Of a stretch of 64,000 bases of DNA, positions 36,439-52,676 are shown piece by piece. The notes beneath the pieces are model-generated. The model searched no databases. It had not been told where the DNA came from and worked only from the letters and a program-made list of their open reading frames with translations. The first letter of the stretch is position 1. The number at the start of each line of letters is the position of its first letter. The stretch comes from Rhodospirillales bacterium URHD0017 (lineage in GTDB: Bacteria > Pseudomonadota > Alphaproteobacteria > Reyranellales > Reyranellaceae). The translations under genes and the position numbers were made by a program. Where the stretch lies: contig FODP01000001.1 in assembly GCA_900110395.1 (NCBI GenBank), positions 558,001 to 622,000 on the forward strand, written 5' to 3'.

Positions 36439-36535
36439 GCAGCATCATTGAAATGCAACGTGCAACGGCGCCGTGCTAGTGCTTCACTACGATCTTGGGG
36501 GAACGACAAGCAACCGATTGAAACGAGGGCTTGCC

Positions 36536-38680
36536 ATGCCTGCCGCTAATCCGAATTTCGTCCAGGAATACTGGTTCGATGTCTGGCAGCGCTCAATCCT
36601 GACGCTGGATGTGCTGCGCGAGCGCGGCAACACCTATATGGAGCGGCGCGACAGCGCGACGCCGCATGTCCTCAGCTTCAAGTTCGACCTGGTGAGCGAC
36701 GGACGCGAGCTACCCAAGCCAGTCAACTACGTGCTGGTGCAGATCGTGCCGCCCGCTGGCGTCGTGACCGATGACACCAAACCGCCCTTCGTCGTGGTCG
36801 ACCCGCGCGCCGGCCATGGCCCGGGCATCGGCGGCATGAAGCAGGACAGCGAGATCGGCGTGGCGCTTGCGGCGGGCCATCCTTGCTACTTCATCGGCTT
36901 CCTGCCGCAGCCCATGCCTGAGCAGACGATCGAGGACGTATGCTCGGCCGAGGCGACCTTCATCGAGCAGGTCGCGGCGCGCCATCCCAGGGCGGAGGGC
37001 AAGCCGGTCATTGTCGCCAACTGCCAGGCCGGCTGGCAGATCATGATGACGGCGGCGGTCCGGCCCGAGATCTTCGGCCCGATCCTGCTGGCAGGGTCGC
37101 CGCTGTCCTACTGGCAGGGTGTGCATGGCCGCAATCCGATGCGCTATCTCGGCGGCACCCTGGGCGGCACCTGGCTGACCGCGCTGTCGGGTGATTTGGG
37201 CAAGGGGATCTTCGACGGCGCCAACCTGGTCTCCAATTTCGAATCGTTGAACCCGGCCAACACCTATTGGGAGAAGGCCTATCATCTCTATTCGAACGTC
37301 GACACCGAAGCACATCGGTTTCTCGACTTCGAAACCTGGTGGGGCAACCCGGTGCTGCTCAATGCAAAGGAGATGCAGTGGATCGCCGACAATCTCTTCG
37401 TCGGCAACAAGCTGACCTCGGGCGAGATCCAGACGTCCGCCGGGGTGCGCGTCGACCTGCGCAACATCAAGACGCCGATCATCGTGCTATGCTCGTGGGG
37501 CGACAACATCACCCCGCCGCAGCAGGCGCTGGGCTGGGTGACGGACCTGTATGCGACCGACGACGAGATCGTCGCCAACGGGCAGACCATCGTCTACACG
37601 CTGCACCAGACGATCGGTCATCTCGGCATCTTCGTGTCGGGCAAGGTCGCCACCAAGGAGCATGCCGAGTTCGCCGCCTGCATGGAGATGATCGACCTGA
37701 TGCCGCCGGGTCTCTATGAGGCGGTGATCACCGAGGTCGCGGAGGATGCAGCCAATCCCGAGCTGATCCATGGCAAGTACCTGTTCCGCCTCGAGGCGCG
37801 CACGCTCGACCATATCCGCGCGCTGGGCGCCAACAGCGATGAGGACAACAAGCGCTTCGCCGCCGTGGCTCGGCTGTCGGAGATCAATCACGGCCTCTAC
37901 AAGACGCTCGCCCAGCCGATGGTGCAGGCCATGACCACCGAGCAGTCGGCGGAAGCGATGCGGCAGATGCATCCGAGCCGGCTCCGCTTCGCCGCGTTCT
38001 CCGACAAGAACCCGCTGATGCAGCCGGTCAAGGGACTGGCCGAGTCGGTGCGGGCCGACCGTAAGCCCGTGTCGGCGGACAATCCGCTGCTGTCGCTGGA
38101 GAAGGTCACCTCGACCTGGATCACCACCTGCTGGGAGAATTATCGGGTGGCGCGTGACGCGATGACCGAGGCGATGTTCATGGGCCTCTATGGCGCGCCG
38201 CTGGTGCAGGCGATGGTCGGCATGGCCAATGGGAGCCTTGCCCAGCGCCACATCGAGCGCGACCTGCAGCATGAGGCTAGCGAGGCCCGCATGCGCGCCG
38301 ACCTCGAGAAGAGCTTCGAGGTCGGCGGCCTGCCGGAAGCGGCCATCCGCAGCCTGATCTACATCCGGCTGCCGTATCAGGCGGTTGACGAGCGCGGCTA
38401 CGCCATGCTCATGGCGGTGCGGGCGATGCAGCCGATGAACCGTCGAATGACCAAGGTCGAGCTCAAGGCCGCCCTGCGCGAGCAGTACATGCTGCTGCGG
38501 CTGGACGAGGAGCGGGCGGTTGGGGCCATCCCGCGGCTGCTGCCGGACAGCGAGCAGGCCCGACAGACCGGCCTCGATGCCATCCGGCGGGTGGTTGCGG
38601 CGCCGGGTGCGCTGTCGCCCGAGAGCGCGCGCCGCCTCAGTCGCATCGAGAAGCTGTTTGGAGAGGCGCCCCATGCCTGA
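36536..38680 (+). CDS. DUF3141 protein, PHA-synthase-like alpha/beta hydrolase
   Basis: 714 residues from ATG 36536 (MPAANPNFVQEYWFDVWQRS). An N-terminal helical region precedes an alpha/beta-hydrolase core: PFVVVDPRAGHGPGIGG, the nucleophile elbow KPVIVANCQAGWQIMM (cysteine in place of serine, as in PhaC), TPIIVLCSWGDNITPPQQ with an aspartate, and HQTIGHLGIFVSG with a histidine. The C-terminal 250 residues are helical and unassigned. It overlaps the phosphate acyltransferase gene by 8 bases. DUF3141 genes are often found with pta, ackA and fabI in proteobacteria. The substrate is unproven; an acyl-CoA or hydroxyacyl thioester is plausible. Confidence 0.85.
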   Translation: MPAANPNFVQEYWFDVWQRSILTLDVLRERGNTYMERRDSATPHVLSFKFDLVSDGRELPKPVNYVLVQIVPPAGVVTDDTKPPFVVVDPRAGHGPGIGGMKQDSEIGVALAAGHPCYFIGFLPQPMPEQTIEDVCSAEATFIEQVAARHPRAEGKPVIVANCQAGWQIMMTAAVRPEIFGPILLAGSPLSYWQGVHGRNPMRYLGGTLGGTWLTALSGDLGKGIFDGANLVSNFESLNPANTYWEKAYHLYSNVDTEAHRFLDFETWWGNPVLLNAKEMQWIADNLFVGNKLTSGEIQTSAGVRVDLRNIKTPIIVLCSWGDNITPPQQALGWVTDLYATDDEIVANGQTIVYTLHQTIGHLGIFVSGKVATKEHAEFAACMEMIDLMPPGLYEAVITEVAEDAANPELIHGKYLFRLEARTLDHIRALGANSDEDNKRFAAVARLSEINHGLYKTLAQPMVQAMTTEQSAEAMRQMHPSRLRFAAFSDKNPLMQPVKGLAESVRADRKPVSADNPLLSLEKVTSTWITTCWENYRVARDAMTEAMFMGLYGAPLVQAMVGMANGSLAQRHIERDLQHEASEARMRADLEKSFEVGGLPEAAIRSLIYIRLPYQAVDERGYAMLMAVRAMQPMNRRMTKVELKAALREQYMLLRLDEERAVGAIPRLLPDSEQARQTGLDAIRRVVAAPGALSPESARRLSRIEKLFGEAPHA

Positions 38681-39638
38681 TACCGCCGGCCAGGCCCCAA
38701 CCGCACCGCACGCCAAGTATCACCACCTCATCGAGATGGCGCGCAAACATCCGCCGATGCCTACCGCGGTGGCGCACCCCTGCGATCGGGTGTCGCTCGA
38801 AAGCGCAATCGAAGCTGCGCGGCTCGGCCTCATGGTGCCGCTTCTCGTCGGGCCGCCGTCGCGCATTCTCGATGTCGCGAGCCGCGAGGCGCTCGACATC
38901 TCGGCTTTCGAGATCATCGAGGCCGATCATAGTCATGACTCGGCGGTCAAGGCTGTCGAGTGTGTGCGGGCAGGGCGGGCCGAGGCCTTGATGAAGGGCA
39001 GCCTCCACACCGATGAGCTGATGGGCGCGGCGGTGGCGCGGGATGCAGGCATCCGTACCGCACGGCGCGTCAGCCATTGCTTCGTCATGGATGTGCCGAT
39101 GCATCCGGATGCGCTGATCATCACCGACGCGGCGGTGAACATCGCGCCGACGCTGGCCGACAAGGCCGACATCGTCCAGAACGCCATCGACCTTGCCCAT
39201 GCCCTCGGCGCGCCAGAGGTGAGAGTCGCCATCCTGAGCGCCATGGAGACCGTCAATCCGAAGGTGCCGTCGACGATCGAGGCGGCGGCCCTGTGCAAGA
39301 TGGCCGACCGCGGCCAGATCACTGGCGCCATCCTTGACGGCCCGCTGGCTCTCGACAATGCCATCAGTCCGGAGGCGGCTGCCTTAAAGCATATCGTCTC
39401 GCCGGTGGCCGGGCGGGCCAACGTGCTGGTGGTGCCAGATCTCGAGGCCGGCAACATGCTGGCCAAGAGTCTGTCGTTCCTGGCCGGCGCCGATGCCGCT
39501 GGCATCGTCTTGGGGACGCGCGTTCCCATCATTCTCACCAGCCGCGCCGATTCGCTGACGACCCGGCTCGCGTCGTGCGCGGTTGCCGTTCTGGTGGCGG
39601 CGGCGCGACGAGCCAGCGCCGCCAACGTCATTCGCTGA
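38673..39638 (+). CDS. Phosphate acetyl/butyryltransferase
   Basis: Converts acetyl-CoA (or another acyl-CoA) and phosphate to acyl-phosphate. 321 residues, the length of a catalytic PTA_PTB domain alone. Signatures include LMVPLLVGPPSRILDVA, AVECVRAGRAEALMKGSLHT, ALIITDAAVNIAPTLADKAD, PEVRVAILSAMETVNPKVPS and AGIVLGTRVPIILTSRAD. It lacks the N-terminal MaoC-like enoyl-CoA hydratase domain that several proteobacterial relatives carry. It lies between DUF3141 (8-base overlap) and fabI (10-base gap); acetate kinase follows in the same run. Confidence 0.9.
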   Translation: MPDTAGQAPTAPHAKYHHLIEMARKHPPMPTAVAHPCDRVSLESAIEAARLGLMVPLLVGPPSRILDVASREALDISAFEIIEADHSHDSAVKAVECVRAGRAEALMKGSLHTDELMGAAVARDAGIRTARRVSHCFVMDVPMHPDALIITDAAVNIAPTLADKADIVQNAIDLAHALGAPEVRVAILSAMETVNPKVPSTIEAAALCKMADRGQITGAILDGPLALDNAISPEAAALKHIVSPVAGRANVLVVPDLEAGNMLAKSLSFLAGADAAGIVLGTRVPIILTSRADSLTTRLASCAVAVLVAAARRASAANVIR

Positions 39639-39648
39639 GCAGGGGGAC

Positions 39649-40428
39649 ATGACCGATACGATCCGACCCATTCTCACCGGCCAGAAGGCTCTTGTCGTCG
39701 GCATCGCCAACGATCATTCGATCGCCTATGGCTGCGCCAAGGCCTTCCGCACCGCCGGCGCCGATATCGCCGTCACCTGGCTCAACGAGAAGGCGCGCCC
39801 CTATGTCGAGCCGCTGGCTCGCGAGCTCGAGGCGCCGATCACCGCCGAGCTGAACGTCACCACGCCCGGCCAGCTCGAGGCGGTGTTCGACACCATCACG
39901 CAGCAATGGGGCCGGCTCGACATCCTGGTCCATTCGATCGCCTTCGCGCCGATGGAGGACCTGCGCGGCGGTCTGCTGGACTGTTCGGCCGAAGGCTTTG
40001 CCAAGGCGATGGACGTCTCCTGCCATTCCTTCATCCGCATGGCCAAGCTCGCCGCGCCGCTGATGAAGGGCGGGGGCACCATGTTCGCCATGAGCTACTA
40101 CGGGGCGGCCCGCGTGGTGCCGAACTACAATGTCATGGGACCGGTCAAGGCGGCCCTGGAAGCCTCCTGCCGCTATCTCGCCTACGAGCTCGGTGGCCAG
40201 GGCATCCGTGTCCACGCGATCTCGCCGGGGCCGCTCAAGACCCGGGCGGCGTCCGGCCTGAAGGATTTCGAGCTGCTGCTCAACGAGGCTGCCGAGAAGG
40301 CGCCGCTGGGCGAGCTCGTCGACATCATGGATGTCGGTTATGCCTGCGCCTACCTCGCCACGCCGTTTGCGCGCCGCATCACCGGCGGCACGGTGTATGT
40401 CGACGGCGGCGCCAACATCAGGGCCTGA
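39649..40428 (+). CDS. fabI: Enoyl-[acyl-carrier-protein] reductase, FabI type
   Basis: NADH-dependent last step of the fatty-acid elongation cycle. 259 residues from ATG 39649, directly after AGGGGG. It has the SDR start LTGQKALVVGIANDHSIAYG, then ILVHSIAFAPMEDLRGGLLD and the active-site stretch MSYYGAARVVPNYNVMGPVK with the Tyr-x6-Lys pair. It ends ITGGTVYVDGGANIRA. Its position between pta and ackA in a fermentation-type cluster suggests a second, condition-specific FabI that could dispose of NADH or adjust lipids under low oxygen; that is inference. Confidence 0.93.
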   Translation: MTDTIRPILTGQKALVVGIANDHSIAYGCAKAFRTAGADIAVTWLNEKARPYVEPLARELEAPITAELNVTTPGQLEAVFDTITQQWGRLDILVHSIAFAPMEDLRGGLLDCSAEGFAKAMDVSCHSFIRMAKLAAPLMKGGGTMFAMSYYGAARVVPNYNVMGPVKAALEASCRYLAYELGGQGIRVHAISPGPLKTRAASGLKDFELLLNEAAEKAPLGELVDIMDVGYACAYLATPFARRITGGTVYVDGGANIRA

Positions 40429-40429
40429 C

Positions 40430-41611
40430 ATGGCGGAGCCGGGCTGCATTGCCGTCCTCAATGCGGGATCTTCGAGCATCAAGTTCGCGCTCTACGAATC
40501 CGGGCGTGACGAAGCGCTGCTGTTTCGCGGGCAGATCGAGGGGATCGGGGTCGCGCCACATCTCAAGGCCCTGGACGGTGCTGGCACGGTCGTGGCGGAG
40601 GAGAATTGGGACAAAGGCAGCCTGGATCACCACGCGGCGACAGCCGCGATCATCGCGCTTGGCCGCAAGCTCCTCGCTGGCCGGCCGGTGCTGGGCTTCG
40701 GCCATCGGGTCGTCCATGGCGGCACGGCCTACGCAGCGCCGACCCGCATCGATGCCGGCGTACTGGCAAACCTCGCCGAATTGGTGCCGCTGGCGCCGCT
40801 GCACCAGCCGCACAATCTCGCGCCGATCGTGGCCATCGCGCAGGTGGTGCCCCACATTCCGCAGGTCGCCTGTTTCGACACCGCCTTTCACCGCAGTCAG
40901 CCGGCCCTGGCGCAGGAATTCGGCCTGCCGCGGAAACTTACCGCCGAGGGTGTCCGCCGCTACGGCTTCCATGGGCTGTCCTACGACTACATCCTGACGC
41001 GCCTGCGGGATACGATGCCGGCATTGGCGCGAGACCGCCTGATCGTGGCCCATCTCGGCAACGGTGCCAGCCTGTGCGCGGTGCGTGATGGGCGAAGCGT
41101 TGCCAGCACGATGGGCTTCACGGCGGTCGACGGCTTGATGATGGGAACCCGAACCGGCGCGCTCGATCCCGGCGTGCTGCTCTACCTGATGCAGCGGTAC
41201 GGCATGGACGCTGGCGCCCTCGAGGATCTGCTGTACAGGCGCTCGGGGCTACTGGGAGTGTCGGGTCTGTCGTCAGACATGCGGGCGCTGCGCCAGTCGC
41301 GGGCGCCGGAGGCAGCCGAGGCCATCGCCTTGTTCGTCTACCGGATCGTACGCGAGATCGGGTCCCTGGCCGCAGCCCTTGGTGGTGTCGACGGGATCGT
41401 CTTCTCCGCCGGGATCGGCGAGCATGATGCAAGAACTCGGGCGGAAGTGGGGGCCGGCTGCCAATGGTTAGGCCTCGAACTCGACGACGCGCGCAATCGG
41501 TCTGGAGAGACCCGGATCAGCACCGACCGCTCGACGCTATCCGCCTGGATTATTCCGACTGACGAAGAGCGGATGATAGCGCGCTACACCCGCCAAGTGA
41601 TCGCCGACTGA
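40430..41611 (+). CDS. ackA: Acetate kinase
   Basis: Acetyl-phosphate + ADP to acetate + ATP. 393 residues, starting 1 base after the fabI stop. Family motifs are in order: CIAVLNAGSSSIKFALYES, GFGHRVVHGG, QVACFDTAFHRSQPALAQEF, VRRYGFHGLSYDYI, IVAHLGNGASLCAV and DGLMMGTRTGALDPGVLLYL. The C-terminal VDGIVFSAGIGEHDARTRAE fits too. With the upstream acyltransferase it forms the substrate-level phosphorylation branch that the downstream pyruvate formate-lyase could feed. Confidence 0.96.
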   Translation: MAEPGCIAVLNAGSSSIKFALYESGRDEALLFRGQIEGIGVAPHLKALDGAGTVVAEENWDKGSLDHHAATAAIIALGRKLLAGRPVLGFGHRVVHGGTAYAAPTRIDAGVLANLAELVPLAPLHQPHNLAPIVAIAQVVPHIPQVACFDTAFHRSQPALAQEFGLPRKLTAEGVRRYGFHGLSYDYILTRLRDTMPALARDRLIVAHLGNGASLCAVRDGRSVASTMGFTAVDGLMMGTRTGALDPGVLLYLMQRYGMDAGALEDLLYRRSGLLGVSGLSSDMRALRQSRAPEAAEAIALFVYRIVREIGSLAAALGGVDGIVFSAGIGEHDARTRAEVGAGCQWLGLELDDARNRSGETRISTDRSTLSAWIIPTDEERMIARYTRQVIAD

Positions 41612-42701: not shown

Positions 42702-43220
42702 CTAGGCGCTCCGGGACTTCGGCCTGCTGACCTTGCCGATCTCACAGAGCCTCTCGTCGTCGAGTACGACAATCTCGTCAACGTTGCTGCGGACGACATT
42801 GCGTTTTCGCAATTGGCTGAGCGAACGGCTCAGGGTCTCCACGGTGATTCCGAGATAGTCGGCAATCTCCCGGCGCCTAATCTGCAGCGCCAGCGACGAC
42901 TCGGGCATAGAGCGTTCACTGTCCGCGGCGTCGAACTCGGCCAGGAAGTGGGCGACACGTTCGCGGCCGTCATCGAGGCCGAGCGACACCGCGGCAATCC
43001 CCCGCCTGATCTTGAAGAACGACCCTATCGGATCGCCGGCGCGGAACATGATCTCGCGCTGCTTCCAGCGGCGGATGCCTCCCAGTCCAAGCATGAGCAG
43101 CAGGCGGGTGGGATCGAGCGGCCTGCAGATGTTGGCGGCTCTGCCAGCGCAGCTATCGCATGGCAGACCTTGCGAAGCCTGTCTGCGCGGTTTCCAAAGC
43201 GACGCTACAGCAACGCTCAC
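42702..43220 (-). CDS. FNR/FixK-family transcription regulator with internal in-frame deletion
   Basis: 172 residues where FnrN/FixK-type regulators have about 240. The N-terminus has cysteines at 21, 24 and 32 ([16 protein letters not shown]), as in the Fe-S-binding FNR type. The cNMP-like barrel begins normally ([20 protein letters not shown]) up to LDDGR at 86, then jumps to [14 protein letters not shown], which normally follows some 70-80 residues later. The helix-turn-helix is intact: [20 protein letters not shown] and [10 protein letters not shown]. The effector barrel is thus cut in half and part of the dimer helix is missing. The start is GTG at 43220. It is divergent from pflB, its likely target. 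Confidence 0.82.
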
Positions 43221-43387
43221 AGGATCATGCTAGCATGAGCAGGACTCGCCACCAACGGGGCCGAGTGGCAACTGGTCCATCGCTTCGCGATCAATCTGTG
43301 GCACAGTGCTTGGCACAGAGCGTTCGCCGCCAGTCCAAAAGACCGCGGGCGCCCGCCAACTCCAAGAAAAATACAAAGGAGGAGGGC
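43221..43387. promoter_or_regulatory. Divergent regulator/pflB control region with a sigma-54-like site
   Basis: 167 bases between the FNR-like gene and pflB. TGGCAC-N5-TTGG at 43299-43313 differs by one base from the sigma-54 consensus TGGCAC-N5-TTGC, pointing towards pflB. Just upstream GCGATCAATCT contains an FNR half-site (ATCAA) but no proper left half. The end, AAATACAAAGGAGGAGGGC, is the pflB ribosome-binding site. Both promoter calls are tentative. Confidence 0.35.
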
Positions 43388-45652
43388 ATGCAGGACTCGA
43401 CTAAAGCACCGATCGGCAACCGTCAGGCGCACGCTTGGCGCACCTTCAATGCGGGACGCTGGGAAACCGCCATCGACGTTCGCGACTTCATCGTCCGCAA
43501 TGCGACATCGTACGAGGGCGATGAAAGCTTCCTCGTCGGACCGTCGGTTCGGACGCGAGCCGTATGGGACAAGCTGCAACCTTATTTCCAGCAGGAGCGA
43601 AAGAAGGGCGTGCTGGATGTCGATGCCGCCACGCCGTCGACGATGCTGGCGCACGCCGCCGGCTGGATCGACCGTGACAACGAGGTGATCGTCGGCCTGC
43701 AGACGGACAAGCCGTTCCGCCGCGCGATCTTTCCCAATGGCGGCCTTCGCATGGTCGAGTCCGGCCTCAAGGCCGCGGGGTTCGCTGCCGACCCGGCGGT
43801 CCATCAAGCCTTCACGCATTATCGCAAGACGCACAACGACGGCGTGTTCGACGCCTACACGCCGGAGATCATGAAATGCCGGCGGTCGGGCATCATCACC
43901 GGATTGCCCGATGCGTACGGCCGAGGTCGCATCATCGGCGACTACCGGCGCGTCGCGCTCTATGGCGTCGACAAGCTTCTCTCGGCCAAGCGGGAGGAGC
44001 GGGCGCAGGTCGACGGCATGTGGCCGACCGACGAGGTCATTCGCGTGCGCGAGGAACTGGCCGAGCAGATTCGCGCCCTGGGCGACTTCGTGAAGATGGG
44101 GGAGCGCTACAGCTGCGACCTCGCGCGGCCCGCGGAGTCGGCGCGCGAAGCCGTGCAGTGGACCTATCTCGCCTATCTCGGCGCCATCAAGGAAGCCAAT
44201 GGCGCGGCCATGTCGATCGGCCGGATCTCGACCTTCCTCGACATCTTTATCGAGCGCGACCTGCGCGAGGGTGCGCTGCAGGAGGAGGGCGCGCAGGAGC
44301 TGATCGACCAGCTCGTGCAGAAGCTGCGTATCGTGCGCTTCCTGCGCACGCCGGAATATGACGCGCTGTTCAGCGGCGATCCCTACTGGGCGACGGAGTG
44401 CATCGGCGGCATGGATCTCGATGGCAGGCCGCTGGTCACGCGGACGAGCTACCGCATGCTGCACACCCTGACCAATCTCGGCCCGGCGCCCGAGCCCAAC
44501 ATAACGGTGCTGTGGTCGCGTCATCTGCCGGAGCCGTTCAAGCGCTACTGCATCAAGACCAGCCGCGAGACTTCTTCGCTGCAGTACGAGAACGACGATC
44601 TCATGCGGCCCCATTGGGGCGACGACTACGGTATCGCCTGCTGCGTATCGGCCATGCGGCTCGGCAAGCAGATGCAGTTTTTTGGCGCCCGCGTGAACCT
44701 CGCCAAGGCGCTGCTCTACGCCATCAACGGCGGCCGCGACGAGATGAGCGGCGATCAGATCGCCCCGCCGACCGCCCCGGTGACGGCCGATGTCCTGGAC
44801 TACGATGAGGTGTTCGCGAAGTTCGACGCAACCATGGAATGGCTCGCGCGGACCTACGTGCATGCCATGAACTGCATCCACTACATGCACGACAAGTACT
44901 TCTACGAGCGCCTCGAGATGGCATTGCACGACCGAGATATCCTGCGGACCATGGCCTTCGGCATCGCCGGCCTCTCGGTCGCGACCGACAGCCTGTCGGC
45001 CATCCGGCATGCCAAGGTGCATGTCATCCGTGACGACACGGGGCTGGCGGTCGACTATCGCATCGAGGGCACGTTCCCGACCTACGGCAACGCCGATCCC
45101 GACGTGGACGATATCGCGGCGGACCTGGTATCGCGGTTCATGGCCAAGCTGCGCAAGCACCAGACCTACCGAAACGCTACCCACACCCAGTCCGTTCTCA
45201 CGATCACGTCGAACGTCGTCTACGGCGCCCACACCGGCAACACGCCCGACGGGCGCCGTAAGGGTGAACCCTTTGCGCCCGGCGCCAACCCCATGCACGG
45301 CCGCGACAACCATGGCTGGCTGGCCTCCTGTCTGTCGGTCGCGAGGTTGCCCTATGCCGACGCCCAGGACGGCATCAGCTACACCGTCACCATCTCGCCC
45401 AATCTTGCTCAGCGCGACGGGGAGGGCGGAATTGGCAATGCCGTGAAGGCATTCGACACCTACTTCGGGCAGGGCGGCTTCCACATGAACCTGAACGTGC
45501 TGTCGCCCGAGACCCTCAAGGACGCCATGGAGCACCCGGAGAAGTATCCGCAGCTCACGATCAGGGTGTCGGGTTACGCCGTGAACTTCGTCCGCCTCAC
45601 GCGCGAGCAGCAGCTCGACGTCATCCGCCGTACCTTCCACCGCAACTACTAG
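43388..45652 (+). CDS. pflB: Pyruvate formate-lyase (formate C-acetyltransferase)
   Basis: Glycyl-radical enzyme: pyruvate + CoA to acetyl-CoA + formate, without NADH. 754 residues from ATG 43388 (AAGGAGG just upstream). The catalytic cysteines are adjacent at 418-419 in [15 protein letters not shown], as in E. coli PflB. The radical glycine is Gly729 in [18 protein letters not shown], close to the C-terminus. The Cys-Cys pair separates true PFL from glycerol/choline-type lyases. It is followed 13 bases on by its activase. Being oxygen-sensitive, it implies micro-oxic or anoxic growth. Confidence 0.96.
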
Positions 45653-45665
45653 CGGGGCCGTCGCC

Positions 45666-46493
45666 GTGTCCGGACAAGGAATGGGAGAGGTCGGCAGCCG
45701 CTACGACCTGCGCGGCGATCGTTCGCCAGATGCGCCCGACACCGGGAGCTTCGCGGGCACCGAAAGCCAGGTTGGTTGGATCCACTCCTACGAGACCGGG
45801 TCGACCGTCGACGGCCCGGGTGTCCGCGTCGTGTTGTTCATGGCCGGATGCCTGCTGCGCTGCCTCTATTGCCACAACCCAGATACTTGGCATCTCAAGG
45901 ACGGCACGCGGATCGAGCTGGGGCGCGCCGTGCGACGGCTCGCGAACTTCGCGCCGGCCCTGCGATCGATGGGCGGCGGCCTCACCATCTCGGGCGGCGA
46001 GCCGCTGGTGCAGACCGCCTTCACCCACGGCTTGTTCGCCGCCGCCAAGCGCATGGGCCTGCATACGGCGCTCGACACGTCGGGTTTCCTCGGCGCCCGT
46101 GCGTCGGACGATTATCTGACAAATGTCGATCTCGTGCTGCTCGACATCAAGAGCGGCGATCCCGAGACCTATCGCCGGGCGACCGGCGCGGAGCTCGAGC
46201 CGACCCTGCACTTCGCCAGGCGTCTGGCGGCTCTGGGCAAGCCCGTCTGGGTGCGGTTTGTCCTGGTGCCCGGGCTGACGGACGATCCCGCAAACATCGA
46301 AGCCGTCGCGAAGTTCGTCGGCCCCATGCCCAACGTCGAATGGGTCGAGGTGCTGCCCTTCCACCAGATGGGAGAGTTCAAGTGGAAGGCGCTCGGTCTC
46401 GACTATCGGCTGGCAACGACGCCCACGCCAACCGATGCTCAGGTCGAGAGCGCCTTGGCCATTTTCCGTCGAGCCGGCTGTCGCGCGCGATGA
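45666..46493 (+). CDS. pflA: Pyruvate formate-lyase activating enzyme
   Basis: Radical SAM enzyme that installs the glycyl radical on PflB. 275 residues from GTG 45666. The [4Fe-4S] motif CxxxCxxC is at residues 62, 66 and 69 (FMAGCLLRCLYCHNPDTW), where E. coli PflA has it at 30-37, so there is an extra ~32-residue N-terminus (GSRYDLRGDRSPDAPDTGSF). No other good start exists nearer the conserved VGWIHSYETGSTVDGPGVRV. GGGLTISGGEPLVQ is the SAM-binding GGE motif. It is cotranscribed with pflB. Confidence 0.94.
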   Translation: MSGQGMGEVGSRYDLRGDRSPDAPDTGSFAGTESQVGWIHSYETGSTVDGPGVRVVLFMAGCLLRCLYCHNPDTWHLKDGTRIELGRAVRRLANFAPALRSMGGGLTISGGEPLVQTAFTHGLFAAAKRMGLHTALDTSGFLGARASDDYLTNVDLVLLDIKSGDPETYRRATGAELEPTLHFARRLAALGKPVWVRFVLVPGLTDDPANIEAVAKFVGPMPNVEWVEVLPFHQMGEFKWKALGLDYRLATTPTPTDAQVESALAIFRRAGCRAR

Positions 46494-46518: not shown

Positions 46519-48114
46519 ATGCTGACTGACGTCGCGAATCTGGTCGGCGCCCAGCCCATCCTGGCGTTGTTCCTGGCGATCGGCCTCGGCTACGCAGTGG
46601 GCCAGATCAATATCTTTGGCTTTTCGCTCGGTATCGGCGCCGTGCTGTTCGTCGGCCTGGCGATCGGAGCGTTAGTGCCCAAGGCCCAGATCGCAGGTCC
46701 GATCGGCCTGATCGGCCTTGTGATGTTCCTCTACGGCATCGGCATCCTGTACGGGCGTCAGTTTTTCGAAGGGCTGTCGGGGGCGGGCCGCCGCTACAAT
46801 CTTCTCGCCGTCGTGGCGGTGATTGCGGCGCTGGCCGTCGCCCTGGGGCTCGGCAAGCTGTTCGGCCTGGAGATCGGCCATACGCTCGGCCTGTTCGCGG
46901 GATCGATGACCAGCACCGCGACACTGCAGGCCGCTCTCGACGTCATCGGCAGCAAGGCGCCGTCGATTGGCTATTCGGTGGCCTATCCGTTCGGCGTCAT
47001 CGGACCGATCCTCTGCTTCTACTTCCTGACGCGGGCGTTGAAGCCAACGTTTCCGCCCAAGCCCGCTCGTTTTCACATGGCCGAGGTCACGATCGACCGG
47101 TTGCCGGCCGAGGGCAGCACGCTGGGCGACGTCATGGGCTTGCTGCCGGCCGGCGTGCAGGTGGCGAGCGTGCGGCAGGAGCATCACAATCGTCTGCCCG
47201 ATGAAGCGATCGTGCTGCATCCCGGCGACGGCCTGCTGATCGCCGCCGAACGCCAATCCGCCGTGGCCGAGGTGGTCGCTGCGCTGGGTCGGCTGGAGCC
47301 GGGACGCCTTGGCAAGGATCGCAGCGACCTCTCCTACCAGCGCTACTTCGTGTCCAAGGACAGCCTGACGGGCGTGCCGTTGGGGCGCTTGAACATGCCG
47401 GCCGGTATTCCCATCCAGGTCCTGCATGTCCGGCGCTACGACGTCGATATCGTGCCGGCGCCCGATCTGATGCTCGAGACCGGCGACCGCATCGGCGTGC
47501 TCGTGCCGCCTGAGCATATCGTCGCCACCCGCGCCTTCTTCGGCGACACGGTGAAGTCGGCGGCGGAATTCAGCTATGTCTCCGTCGGCTTCGGCATGGT
47601 GCTGGGCGTGCTGCTTGGCTTGATCCCGATTCCCATCCCTGGTGTCGGCACGGTCACGCTCGGCATCGGCGGCGGTCCCCTGATCGTGGCCTTGATCGTC
47701 GGACGATTGCGGCGCACCGGACCGATCAGCTGGGTCATGCCGTTGCCGGCCAACATCGTGCTGCGCAACTTCGGCCTGACCTTGTTCCTGGCAACGGTCG
47801 GCATCAACTCGGGGCAGGCCTTCGTCACGACCGTGGCGCAGACCGGCCCGCTGATGCTCCTGATCGGTGCGGCCGTTCTGCTCACCGCCGTGGCGATCGT
47901 GCTCGTAATCGGCCACTGGGTGATGCGTATCCCCTTCGACGATCTTTTGGGGATCGCGTCCGGCGCCACCGGCAACCCGGCCATCCTCGTCTACGCCGCC
48001 CGCATGGCGTCGACCGACCGGCCCGACATCGCCTATGCCATGATCTTTCCGTCGGCAACGATCGTTAAGGTCATCGCCGTGCAGGTCGTCGGGCTCGCTG
48101 CATCGGGCACCTGA
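46519..48114 (+). CDS. AspT/YidE-type aspartate:alanine antiporter family transporter
   Basis: 531 residues. Two membrane halves (about residues 1-180 and 360-531) flank a cytoplasmic region with two TrkA_C/RCK_C-like domains (AEVTIDRLPAEGSTLGDVMG and VSKDSLTGVPLGRLNMPAGI). The second half holds SVGFGMVLGVLLGLIPIPIP and GATGNPAILVYAARM, typical of AspT exchangers. AspT swaps aspartate for alanine, YidE-like relatives possibly dicarboxylates. It lies 25 bases after pflA, so it probably exchanges a fermentation substrate or product. Confidence 0.88.
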   Translation: MLTDVANLVGAQPILALFLAIGLGYAVGQINIFGFSLGIGAVLFVGLAIGALVPKAQIAGPIGLIGLVMFLYGIGILYGRQFFEGLSGAGRRYNLLAVVAVIAALAVALGLGKLFGLEIGHTLGLFAGSMTSTATLQAALDVIGSKAPSIGYSVAYPFGVIGPILCFYFLTRALKPTFPPKPARFHMAEVTIDRLPAEGSTLGDVMGLLPAGVQVASVRQEHHNRLPDEAIVLHPGDGLLIAAERQSAVAEVVAALGRLEPGRLGKDRSDLSYQRYFVSKDSLTGVPLGRLNMPAGIPIQVLHVRRYDVDIVPAPDLMLETGDRIGVLVPPEHIVATRAFFGDTVKSAAEFSYVSVGFGMVLGVLLGLIPIPIPGVGTVTLGIGGGPLIVALIVGRLRRTGPISWVMPLPANIVLRNFGLTLFLATVGINSGQAFVTTVAQTGPLMLLIGAAVLLTAVAIVLVIGHWVMRIPFDDLLGIASGATGNPAILVYAARMASTDRPDIAYAMIFPSATIVKVIAVQVVGLAASGT

Positions 48115-48558: not shown

Positions 48559-49422
48559 ATGAACGAGCCAAATCCGACGCAAGCACCGCCCTTCTTCAAC
48601 TTCAACGCCTACAGCCCGGCCGAGATGCAGGATGCCATCGAGAAGGTCGGGGTATCGAAAGCCATCATGCCGCTGCTCCCGTCTTTCATGCTGGCGGTTG
48701 TCGCCGGCGGCAGCATCGGCCTCGGGGCGCTCTACTACACCGTCGTCGCCAGCGACCCGTCGCTAGGCTTCGCCGCCACGCGCGTTGTCGGCGGCCTGGT
48801 GTTTTCGCTCGGCCTTGCCCTCGTTCTGGTCGGCGGGGCGGAGCTGTTCACGGGCAACAACCTGATCGTCATGGCGTGGGCAAGCCGCAGGATCTCGACG
48901 GGCAAGATGCTGCGCAACTGGCTGGTCGTCTACGCCGGTAACTTCTTCGGCGCCGCCGGCCTGGTTGTCCTGGTGCTGCTGGCGCGACATCTCGACACGA
49001 ACGGCGGCCATATCCGGCTCTCGATCCTTAGTACTGCCGTGGCGAAGATCAGCCCCGACGCGGCAACACTGTTCTTCAAGGGCGTTCTCTGCAATCTGCT
49101 CGTCTGCCTCGCCGTGTGGCTGGCCTATGCCGGCCGTTCGGTGACCGACAAGATCGTCGGGCTGATCCTGCCGATCTCCGCCTTCGTGGCGGCCGGCTTC
49201 GAGCACTGCATTGCCAACATGTATTTCCTGCCGCTGGCCTGGTTGACGGTGGAGCTTGGCGGCGTGCCGCAGGGATTTGATGCTGCGGCGATCACGCTCG
49301 GCGGAATCGCGAAGAACCTCGCTGCTGTGACACTCGGCAATATCCTCGGCGGCGCCGGCCTTGTGGGCTTCGTGTACTGGGTGATCTACCGCAAGGGCTT
49401 CGGTATCGTCAGTAAAGCTTGA
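48559..49422 (+). CDS. focA: Formate/nitrite transporter (FocA family)
   Basis: Pentameric inner-membrane channel, 287 residues, six helices. Family features are YSPAEMQDAIEKVGVSKA at the N-terminus, GGAELFTGNNLIVMAWASRR (the omega-loop region), YAGNFFGAAGLVVLVLLARH, GVLCNLLVCLAVWLAYAGRS and FVAAGFEHCIANMYFLPLAW, whose histidine corresponds to the gating His of FocA. Proximity to pflB/pflA makes formate the most likely substrate rather than nitrite. It has its own promoter region, separated from the pfl operon by the minus-strand lipoprotein gene. Confidence 0.92.
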   Translation: MNEPNPTQAPPFFNFNAYSPAEMQDAIEKVGVSKAIMPLLPSFMLAVVAGGSIGLGALYYTVVASDPSLGFAATRVVGGLVFSLGLALVLVGGAELFTGNNLIVMAWASRRISTGKMLRNWLVVYAGNFFGAAGLVVLVLLARHLDTNGGHIRLSILSTAVAKISPDAATLFFKGVLCNLLVCLAVWLAYAGRSVTDKIVGLILPISAFVAAGFEHCIANMYFLPLAWLTVELGGVPQGFDAAAITLGGIAKNLAAVTLGNILGGAGLVGFVYWVIYRKGFGIVSKA

Positions 49423-50803
49423 CGTTGTAGTTCAGGATCAGCCGCACCTCGTCGATATTGGTGCGGCTACCGCTCTGGTAGACCGACGAGGTGCCGTATC
49501 TGGCACGCAGCCACAGGCCCTGCAGCGGCTTCCAGTTCGGCCGCCATTCAAGATTGAAGTCCCACTCTGTCTCGACCAGCGGCGCGCCGGCGGCGGGGGC
49601 CCCCGTCGACCCGTTGAAGTAGAACACTGACGCAGCCACACCAGGCAAGCCGATCGGCGTCAAGACATAGGACAGTCCGACCATCACCGCCTGCTCGCCG
49701 GCCCGATTGAAGGATTGGATCTGTGCGTCGGTGTAGAACGGGTTGGCGCTCCACGGCGTCTGGATGGCGAAGGTCGGATTAACGACGGAATAGCCGACGG
49801 TGAGGATGCCGGTCTGGTAACCCAAGTCGACCTTGGCACCGAACTGGTTCGTGGCGAAGTAGTTGCCGCTATTCAAGAGGTTATGACCGGCGCTCCGCTG
49901 GTCGACGAATTGCGCCGCGCCGAGCACATTGAGGCCGAAGTTGAAGCTGTGCCCGTACGATCCCTCGGTATAGACGATGTTGAGCGTATCTTCGGTATAG
50001 TAATCAATCGCGCCGATCGAGGCTGGCCCCCACGTCAACCTGCCCCCCAGCAGACCCGTACCGTAGTCGGCGTTGACGCCCGCCTTGCGCGACATCGACT
50101 GGAAGTCGATAGCATCCCGCGGCTTGATGGCACCGATCCAGCCGGCGCCGTAGTTGAATTGCGGACCGCCGTTCTCGCCGCTGCCGAACTGGCCGGTCAA
50201 CGTGTAGCCAAAGAAGGTGTTCGGCGTCATGCGGTTGTCATGCGGGCCGAGGAACGGCGTGTCGTAAAGGTAGCGGCCGGCGGTGGCGTGGTGCGTCTCG
50301 AACAGGCGGGCGCGGGCATAGAGCTGACCGAACACGGCGTATCCCTGCTGGTTGGGCAGCAGCAGGCCCGTATCGCCGCGATCCGGCGGCGCGTAGATCG
50401 GGAAGGAGGTGTAGAGCACAGCGCCCAGCGAGACGACGTCGAACAAACGCCCGGTTTCGGCGGCGACCGAACCGCCGGCCGCCCAGGCCTCCCTGATCCC
50501 GACGCTGTTCGGCGCGTTCGTCACCTCGTCGCGGTAGTAGCTGCGGAAGTTGATGTCGAACTTGGAATCGCGGAGGAAGGCGGGCGTATCTTTCCACCGC
50601 TCGCGCAGTTCCGGAAACATCGTGAGCGGCGGCGGTGTCGGCTGGCTGAACGTGCGCTGGATGGCCGTAAGATCTTGCGACGGCGTGGCCGGGATCGGGT
50701 CTTCCTGCTTGGCACTTTGCGCGCCGGCCTCGCCGCCGGCGGCGAGCAAGGTGGCAACCAGCAGACCCGCCGCGACACGGCGATGCCCTTCCATCAAACG
50801 CAT
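49409..50803 (-). CDS. OprD-family outer-membrane porin
   Basis: 464 residues with a signal peptide (AAGLLVATLLAAGGEAGA-QSA). The barrel begins DSKFDINFRSYYRDEV and ends with the aromatic C-terminus RLILNYNVKLY that the BAM machinery recognises. Between lie alternating strands such as GPQFNYGAGWIGAIKPRDAI and WDFNLEWRPNWKPLQGLWLR. OprD porins pass small carboxylates and basic amino acids. It overlaps the 3' end of focA by 14 bases in convergent arrangement and lies 41 bases beyond the serine dehydratase 3' end. Confidence 0.85.
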   Translation of the reverse strand: MRLMEGHRRVAAGLLVATLLAAGGEAGAQSAKQEDPIPATPSQDLTAIQRTFSQPTPPPLTMFPELRERWKDTPAFLRDSKFDINFRSYYRDEVTNAPNSVGIREAWAAGGSVAAETGRLFDVVSLGAVLYTSFPIYAPPDRGDTGLLLPNQQGYAVFGQLYARARLFETHHATAGRYLYDTPFLGPHDNRMTPNTFFGYTLTGQFGSGENGGPQFNYGAGWIGAIKPRDAIDFQSMSRKAGVNADYGTGLLGGRLTWGPASIGAIDYYTEDTLNIVYTEGSYGHSFNFGLNVLGAAQFVDQRSAGHNLLNSGNYFATNQFGAKVDLGYQTGILTVGYSVVNPTFAIQTPWSANPFYTDAQIQSFNRAGEQAVMVGLSYVLTPIGLPGVAASVFYFNGSTGAPAAGAPLVETEWDFNLEWRPNWKPLQGLWLRARYGTSSVYQSGSRTNIDEVRLILNYNVKLY

Positions 50804-50844: not shown

Positions 50845-52452
50845 TCAGCAGAGCACGAGATTGGCGGCGAGGCCGCCCTCGCTGGTCTCCTTGTATTTGG
50901 CCGACATGTCGCGCCCGGTTTCGGCGAGGGTCTTGATCGTCGTGTCGAGGTCGACGCGGTGGCGCGAGGCGATCTCGTTGGTGGCGATCATGACGGCGAT
51001 CCACGCCTTCACCGCGCCGAACGCGCAACGCTCGATGCAGGGAACCTGGACATAGCCTGCGACGGGATCGCAGGTCATGCCGAGGTGATGCTCGAGTGCC
51101 GATTCGGCGGCGTTCTCGATGACCTGCGGGGGACTGTCGAGGATCTGCGCGATCAAGGCTGCCGACATCGCCGACGCCACGCCGATCTCCGACTGGCAAC
51201 CGCCCTCGGCGCCGGACAGCGTGGCGTTGTGCTTGCAGAGATAGCCTATCGCAGCGCCAGCCAGCAGACCTTCGCGGATCTTGGCCATTGGCACCTTGCG
51301 TTTGCTTTCTACCAGGGCGTAGACGACGGCGGGCATGACGCCGGCCGAGCCGCCGGTCGGTGCGGTGATGACGAGATGACCGCGCGCGTTCTCCTCCGAA
51401 GCAGCGAGCGCGAAGGCCGAGACCAGGGCGATGGCGCGATCGGCCTCGTACTTGTCGTCCTGGGCGCGGGCGAAGACGGTCGCGGCCTTGGTGTGAAGCT
51501 TGATCGGGCCGGGCAGGACATCGTCCTTGATCGACAGTCCGGTACGGACGGTGGCGAGCATGGCGTTGGCGATCTTGTCGAGGAAGGCGTTGATCTCCGC
51601 CTCGCTCTTGCCGGACACCGCCAGCTCGTTGGTCATCACCACCTGGGCGATCGACAGGTTGTTCTTCTCCGCGTGCGCGCGAAGTTCCTTCATCGTGGCA
51701 TAGGGATACTTGGGCTGGCCTTTCTTGGGAGGCTCGTAGCCCTTCCATTCGATGAAGCCGCCGCCCACCGAATAGTACTCCAGCTCATAGGCGATCTTGT
51801 CTCCGGCCATCAGTCGGCAGGTCATCGTGTTGGGATGAGGGAAGTCGCCCTTGGGCGAATCGTAGACGATGTCGGCCAGCGACAGGTTGAAGGCCTTGTC
51901 GCCGAGCTTCACCGGATAGGTCGCCGTCGGCTTGGCGACCATGTCGTCGAGGAAGCGCGGATCGACCGTCGCCGGTTCCTTGCCGACGAGGCCGGCCAGC
52001 GAAGCGCGTTCGGTGCCGTGGCCCTTGCCGGTGGCGCTCAGGCTGCCGAAAAGATGGACCTTGAGTCCGGTGGCCTGGGCGATCTGGTCGGCCGGCAATT
52101 TCGTACAGCGCTGGTAGAAGTCGTAGGTGATGCGCATCGGTCCGATCGTGTGCGAGCTCGAGGGGCCAGGGCCGACCTTGTAGAACTCCTCGAGCACGGT
52201 CATGATCGGGCCCTTTTCCGCCTTCACGATGTTGAGATCAGGCGACAGGGTGGCGCCGAGCTTGGGCGCCCCCGCCTCCTTGGCCGCCTGCTGGGCCCGC
52301 GCCTCTGGCGTCCAGCTGGTGCCGGTCATGACGGCCGCTGCGCCGATGACGGCGGTGCGCATCAGGAACGCACGGCGATCGATGTCCGTTGGCAAAGCCG
52401 AGAATTCTGGTGATGCCGGAACTGGCTCACCCAACTTCGTTGATGTGCCCAT
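50845..52452 (-). CDS. sdaA: L-serine ammonia-lyase with N-terminal Tat-type signal
   Basis: Iron-sulfur L-serine dehydratase: serine to pyruvate and ammonia. 535 residues from ATG 52452, with AGGAGG 9 bases upstream. The first ~55 residues carry a twin-arginine motif and hydrophobic stretch (DIDRRAFLMRTAVIGAAAVM) with a cleavage-like ARA-QQA at about 53. The enzyme proper starts near residue 85: VGPGPSSSHTIGPMRI, then ENARGHLVITAPTGGSAGVM. The cluster cysteines are in CKHNATLSGAEGGCQSEIG and MTCDPVAGYVQVPCIERCAF. The final residue is a cysteine (GGLAANLVLC), as in the E. coli enzyme, where it caps the active site. A periplasmic or membrane-attached location is inferred. Confidence 0.9.
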   Translation of the reverse strand: MGTSTKLGEPVPASPEFSALPTDIDRRAFLMRTAVIGAAAVMTGTSWTPEARAQQAAKEAGAPKLGATLSPDLNIVKAEKGPIMTVLEEFYKVGPGPSSSHTIGPMRITYDFYQRCTKLPADQIAQATGLKVHLFGSLSATGKGHGTERASLAGLVGKEPATVDPRFLDDMVAKPTATYPVKLGDKAFNLSLADIVYDSPKGDFPHPNTMTCRLMAGDKIAYELEYYSVGGGFIEWKGYEPPKKGQPKYPYATMKELRAHAEKNNLSIAQVVMTNELAVSGKSEAEINAFLDKIANAMLATVRTGLSIKDDVLPGPIKLHTKAATVFARAQDDKYEADRAIALVSAFALAASEENARGHLVITAPTGGSAGVMPAVVYALVESKRKVPMAKIREGLLAGAAIGYLCKHNATLSGAEGGCQSEIGVASAMSAALIAQILDSPPQVIENAAESALEHHLGMTCDPVAGYVQVPCIERCAFGAVKAWIAVMIATNEIASRHRVDLDTTIKTLAETGRDMSAKYKETSEGGLAANLVLC

Positions 52453-52676
52453 CCGTGTAGCCTCCTGTTGGGGTCTTCGTTCTTTTTCCGCAGAGAGATC
52501 AGGTAGGCAGTCCGCATCGAAGTTGTCAACTCGGAGCAATGGTCGACAAGACAAACGTCATCAATCATGGCGCATTGGCGCGAACGCGAATCGTTGAAAA
52601 CGCCAGATATGCGTCGCGACCTCTAGGCTTGAGGAAGCAGGAGGACTAAGCTGAAGGGTCATCGGGGAGGTCGGCC

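Follow-up and report, generated by a model that had tools for sequence, protein, structure and literature searches.

The window, that is, the whole stretch of 64,000 nucleotides from Rhodospirillales bacterium URHD0017 that was analysed, carries on its minus strand an open reading frame for a protein of 535 amino acids (50845–52452; ATG at 52452, stop codon ending at 50845). In a profile search, its product matched the L-serine dehydratase model TIGR00720 with 419.2 bits, above the cut-off of 345.1. Both Pfam domains, SDH_beta and SDH_alpha, were also matched, and residues 84–535 make up a complete single-chain enzyme. When the protein is aligned with the Legionella enzyme (LSD), C419, C461 and C472 fall on the three cysteines that bind its cluster, and the terminal C535 on its C-terminal capping cysteine. 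For the AlphaFold model, which is of moderate confidence (pLDDT 71), the top fold match was LSD (PDB 4RQO; E 5e-22, TM 0.81 by target), and structure alignment gave 38% identity to LSD versus 10% to the L-cysteine desulfidase CyuA (9fyi), whose profile model did not match the window dehydratase. By family, the reading frame thus encodes an entire L-serine dehydratase of type 2, with a [4Fe-4S] cluster, for which deamination of L-serine is predicted; TIGR00720 and the four aligned cysteines bear out the preliminary description, in which a complete enzyme with cluster cysteines and a C-terminal capping cysteine had been recognised. It is the only SdaA copy in the 8.2 Mb genome, and no relatives were found in the viral contigs searched.

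The start methionine of canonical SdaA aligns with M84, so that the window protein has an N-terminal extension of 83 residues, which agrees with the approximately 80 extra residues, RR pair and ARA-QQA sequence described before. R26-R27 lie within DIDRRAFLMR, followed by AVIGAAAVMTG and then by ARA-QQA, and the predicted Tat signal covers residues 24–53 (52294–52383, minus strand), with an AxA cleavage-like site ending at residue 53. The NCBIfam Tat-signal model TIGR01409 matched these residues over its full length (21.7 bits, cut-off 16.7), whereas the Pfam TAT_signal model found no match in the window dehydratase, so the proposed Tat-signal prediction held with one model and not with the other. 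Directly before the ATG at 52452 stands CAACAGGAGGCTACACGG, a strong ribosome-binding site with AGGAGG (52453–52470, minus strand). It had been asked whether the true start might lie after the signal; this ribosome-binding site favours a start upstream of the RR pair instead.

The matches collected in the class and phylum surveys form two groups, and none has an identity to the window protein between 45% and 57%. The first group, termed here the Tat clade, has 83 members with at least 57% identity, the window protein counted, and the second has 56 ordinary SdaA proteins with at most 45%; the identity between the two is about 40%. In the tree, a single branch with an SH-aLRT value of 100 unites all the signal-bearing proteins, and, as judged from sequence, the Tat-signal dehydratases are one broad monophyletic clade. 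Its members come from Alpha- and Gammaproteobacteria, Acidobacteriota and Bacteroidota, together with metagenome-assembled genomes (MAGs) labelled Verrucomicrobiota and Planctomycetota. Three of these groups, Alphaproteobacteria, Acidobacteriota and Bacteroidota, are represented by isolates as well, so MAG contamination does not explain this spread. On L011, L028 and other MAG contigs labelled Verrucomicrobiota, the proteins are 84–86% identical to the alphaproteobacterial one, which reflects either recent transfer or a binning error. Moreover, 6 of 14 genomes with the Tat form also hold an ordinary SdaA or its alpha subunit, and the rest have the Tat form only.

RRxF followed by a hydrophobic stretch was present in 78 of the 83 clade members, and in none of the 56 ordinary SdaA proteins genuinely, the single pattern match among the latter lying in a frame upstream and being due to chance; one of the five clade members failing the search is cut by a contig end. 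The search required only RR and a hydrophobic residue at +3, that is, neither F at +3 nor G at +18, and yet F was found at +3 in 78/78 and G at +18 in 77/78 signal-bearing members. The ratio pN/pS is 0.15 in the signal versus 0.12 in the enzyme core, while the linkers drift, so the signal is evidently under strong purifying selection. Ribosome-binding sites are also better at starts upstream of the RR pair (mean −8.1 kcal/mol) than at internal starts (−5.6 kcal/mol). The conservation (78/83 versus 0/56) rules out a chance RR in an upstream open frame and answers the earlier question of whether the motif is kept in orthologues; ribosome-binding sites and selection speak against M84 as the main start. 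TatC is encoded in the genome of the window and in 14/14 relatives examined. Tat export of the dehydratase is thus supported by the signal and its conservation. In 14 relatives a lipobox-like LxGC follows the hydrophobic stretch, so that the clade probably includes Tat lipoproteins. In a Bacteroidota-type branch (L073, L076, L080–L083, L085, L086 and L088), a cysteine-rich stretch, mostly CxxCx4CxxC, precedes the RR pair; it lies on the part expected to be cleaved and perhaps serves in metal binding or in proofreading before export.

Four clade members (L037, L058, L066 and L087) have no signal and are nested inside the clade, where they represent three separate changes on the tree. A frameshift hiding the signal was considered and rejected, as the other frames hold no RR signal, and the signal seems to have been genuinely lost, although each of the four sequences is from a MAG. 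These proteins are possible natural cytoplasmic revertants.

Downstream of the dehydratase gene by 41 nt and on the same strand lies a gene for an OprD-family outer-membrane porin (49409–50803, minus strand; PF03573), which confirms the neighbouring porin reported in the preliminary description; a porin gene also adjoins the dehydratase gene in L003–L006. The six genes described next are on the plus strand. A FocA-like formate/nitrite transporter (48559–49422) matched PF01226, and TIGR04060 at 237 bits, under the cut-off of 290. The candidate pyruvate exchanger is an antiporter of AspT/YidE type (46522–48114, approximate start; PF06826 twice, TrkA_C). PflA, the pyruvate formate-lyase (PFL) activase (45666–46493; TIGR02493, 295 bits, cut-off 232), stands beside PflB, the pyruvate formate-lyase itself (43283–45652; TIGR01255, 1096 bits, cut-off 994), which has the ACC and RVSGYAV motifs and an uncertain start, the first start of its reading frame being at 43160. 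Farther along are acetate kinase AckA (40415–41611, approximate start; TIGR00016, 349 bits, cut-off 293; PF00871) and phosphate acetyltransferase Pta (38670–39638, approximate start; NF008852, 508 bits, cut-off 413). PflB, PflA, Pta and AckA are accordingly all present in the window above curated cut-offs, and the gene set from Pta to the dehydratase spans 38.7 to 52.5 kb of it. PflB is also a single copy, so the sole SdaA and the sole PflB lie less than 8 kb apart in 8.2 Mb. A FabI-like enoyl-ACP reductase gene (39652–40428) is located between Pta and AckA, and a DUF3141 protein that is weakly PHA synthase-like (36473–38680) is encoded directly 5′ of Pta. No carrier of the major facilitator superfamily (MFS) was found in the window, nor a close copy elsewhere in the genome. 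Regulation by FNR/Anr was considered for the window genes and dropped, since no FNR-type box was found upstream in the window; perfect boxes of this type, TTGAT-N4-GTCAA, stand about 60–90 nt 5′ of the Tat dehydratase in L004, L005 and L006, and only in these three close relatives.

Neighbouring genes within about 5 kb were counted at 55 long Tat-clade loci and at 26 ordinary SdaA loci (20 plus 6, the six coming from genomes in which the Tat form is present as well). PflB was found near 37/55 of the long loci and PflA near 30/55, and an MFS carrier lay directly downstream in 19/55, the match beginning within about 80 nt in 18 of these 19. Pta and AckA were each present at 18/55, an AspT-like antiporter at 20/55 and a DcaP-type porin at 9/55; the ordinary SdaA loci had neither this antiporter nor this porin. 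At least one of PflB, PflA, Pta, AckA and MFS occurred at 41/55 long loci versus 0/26 ordinary SdaA loci (Fisher p about 1e-9), and with Microvirga left out PflB was still present at 20/37; 14 of the 55 had no linked gene. The Tat clade is tied to the pyruvate formate-lyase/acetate kinase gene set, a link that was missing from the preliminary description. The gene order AspA, Dcu, asparaginase, porin, Tat dehydratase, MFS, Pta, AckA, PflB is seen in L044, and asparaginase, Dcu and AspA genes occur in a few loci of the clade, with asparaginase/Dcu genes in L044 and L011. In Phenylobacterium (L074:6574–10042), two genes stand after that of the Tat dehydratase in place of PFL, one for a protein of unknown family and one for a relative of Baeyer–Villiger-type monooxygenases.

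From gene linkage, enzyme identity, the Tat signal and its conservation, all of them read from sequence, we infer export, substrate, pyruvate transport and physiological role as follows. The dehydratase is probably exported by Tat and carries out the first, outside step of serine fermentation, a reading held with moderate confidence. Folded Fe-S proteins are known Tat cargo, and the dehydratase would fold and receive its [4Fe-4S] cluster in the cytoplasm before leaving by Tat; most relatives would set it free in the periplasm after the AxA site, and some would keep it attached by a lipoprotein anchor. Serine would pass the porin encoded next to the dehydratase, and its deamination to pyruvate and ammonia would take place in the periplasm. 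The pyruvate would then be brought inside by the linked transporter, namely the MFS carrier in many lineages and the AspT-like antiporter in the window and in Microvirga, both carriers being assigned to family only broadly and pyruvate being their presumed cargo. In the cytoplasm, PflB activated by PflA would cleave pyruvate, giving formate, whose passage FocA would handle, and acetyl-CoA, from which Pta and AckA would make acetate with a gain of one ATP. The wider proposal, in which fermentation is divided between compartments, ammonia staying outside while pyruvate enters by exchange or symport to reach PFL, Pta and AckA, and in which this module has reached several phyla, mainly soil-dwelling bacteria that are regarded as aerobes, is advanced tentatively and at somewhat less than an even chance. 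Some genera in the clade are known as aerobes; the linked PFL genes suggest use at low oxygen, but the window has no FNR-type box to go with it. Solvent-exposed [4Fe-4S] clusters are oxygen-sensitive, and this sits awkwardly with a periplasmic location in soil aerobes and counts against export.

The residues that separate the two groups bear on the choice of substrate. In the alignment, 58 positions consistently differ between the Tat clade and ordinary SdaA. Cys476 (51025–51027, minus strand), four residues past C472, is invariant in the Tat clade and is Asn in 56/56 ordinary SdaA proteins, and C406 (51235–51237, minus strand) is present in 98% of the Tat clade versus 14% of ordinary SdaA; the two are near the cluster ligands C472 and C419, respectively, in sequence. 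R357, H359 and S369 are also clade-specific and lie near conserved motifs. Because so many positions differ, some of them beside cluster ligands in sequence, and because ordinary SdaA is so distant in identity, the enzyme may, while still exported by Tat and linked to PFL, act mainly on a substrate other than L-serine, for example L-threonine, D-serine or L-cysteine, with pyruvate or 2-oxobutyrate as product. However, 83 positions are common to both groups, including SSSHT, N208, N355, Q420, D462, E474-R475 and all the cluster cysteines (C419, C461, C472 and C535, kept in both alike), TIGR00720 is an equivalog model matched above its cut-off, and the structure is far closer to L-serine dehydratase than to CyuA, so that a different main substrate is considered rather unlikely.

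Serine may also be deaminated outside mainly for the sake of the ammonia, which would buffer the periplasm against acetate and formate, pyruvate being secondary. The enzymes encoded alongside, PFL, Pta and AckA, produce acid, and ammonia would be freed where the acids are excreted; but the adjoining MFS carrier, the porin and the PFL link point to carbon use, no recognised acid-resistance gene is prominent among the conserved neighbours, and such a role appears improbable. Very improbable, in turn, is an ordinary cytoplasmic enzyme whose N-terminus is unused for export, whether translated from near M84 or bearing a relic signal. It would account for the alignment of M84 with the ordinary start, for a start codon there in many relatives and for the four nested proteins without a signal, but not for the poorer ribosome-binding sites at internal starts, for a strongly selected signal kept across phyla, or for the separate ordinary SdaA or alpha subunit retained in 6/14 genomes.

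An exported serine dehydratase as the proposed entry to fermentation can be compared with several known systems. Cytoplasmic SdaA/SdaB, represented by LSD, has the same domains, fold, three cluster cysteines and capping cysteine; the Tat clade differs in its conserved signal, in being a separate clade with diagnostic positions of its own, and in its linkage to PFL, Pta, AckA and transporters. The system of asparaginase AnsB, the DcuA/DcuB antiporter and aspartase AspA works in the way proposed here, as an exported enzyme frees ammonia from an amino acid and the remaining carbon compound is taken up to feed anaerobic energy metabolism; with periplasmic asparaginase and the DcuA antiporter, ammonia is released outside before import (PMC10634366). 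However, AnsB is unrelated in sequence and has no Fe-S cluster, and its product is aspartate for fumarate respiration rather than pyruvate for PFL. The tdc and cyuPA systems of E. coli likewise use one-step deamination to a 2-oxoacid followed by a PFL-type enzyme and acetate kinase, and E. coli ferments cysteine or serine via pyruvate by this same cytoplasmic downstream route with a yield of about one ATP (PMC9040844), but in these systems uptake of the amino acid precedes its deamination, which takes place in the cytoplasm and is the work of the PLP enzyme TdcB or of CyuA. CyuA itself has a homologous [4Fe-4S] fold, and its chemistry also yields pyruvate and ammonia; it differs in its low structural identity given above and in acting, in E. 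coli, on imported cysteine in the cytoplasm (PMC9040844), and it has been reported that its Cys23 and Glu25 are absent from SdaA (PMC12647591).

Type 2 serine dehydratase has generally been regarded as cytoplasmic. No account of a serine dehydratase that is exported came up in a literature search covering open-licence papers only. The conserved export signal and the PFL link imply an undescribed amino-acid fermentation with a periplasmic first step, in lineages usually called aerobic, such as Microvirga, Caulobacter, Sphingomonas and Acidobacteriota. In addition, the Tat dehydratase would be easy to work with as a Tat substrate whose [4Fe-4S] cluster is labile. If the proposal is true, a carrier that exchanged pyruvate against acetate or formate would spare the cost of serine transport and would perhaps conserve energy, and metabolic models that place serine deamination inside the cell are predicted to be wrong for bacteria of the Tat clade.
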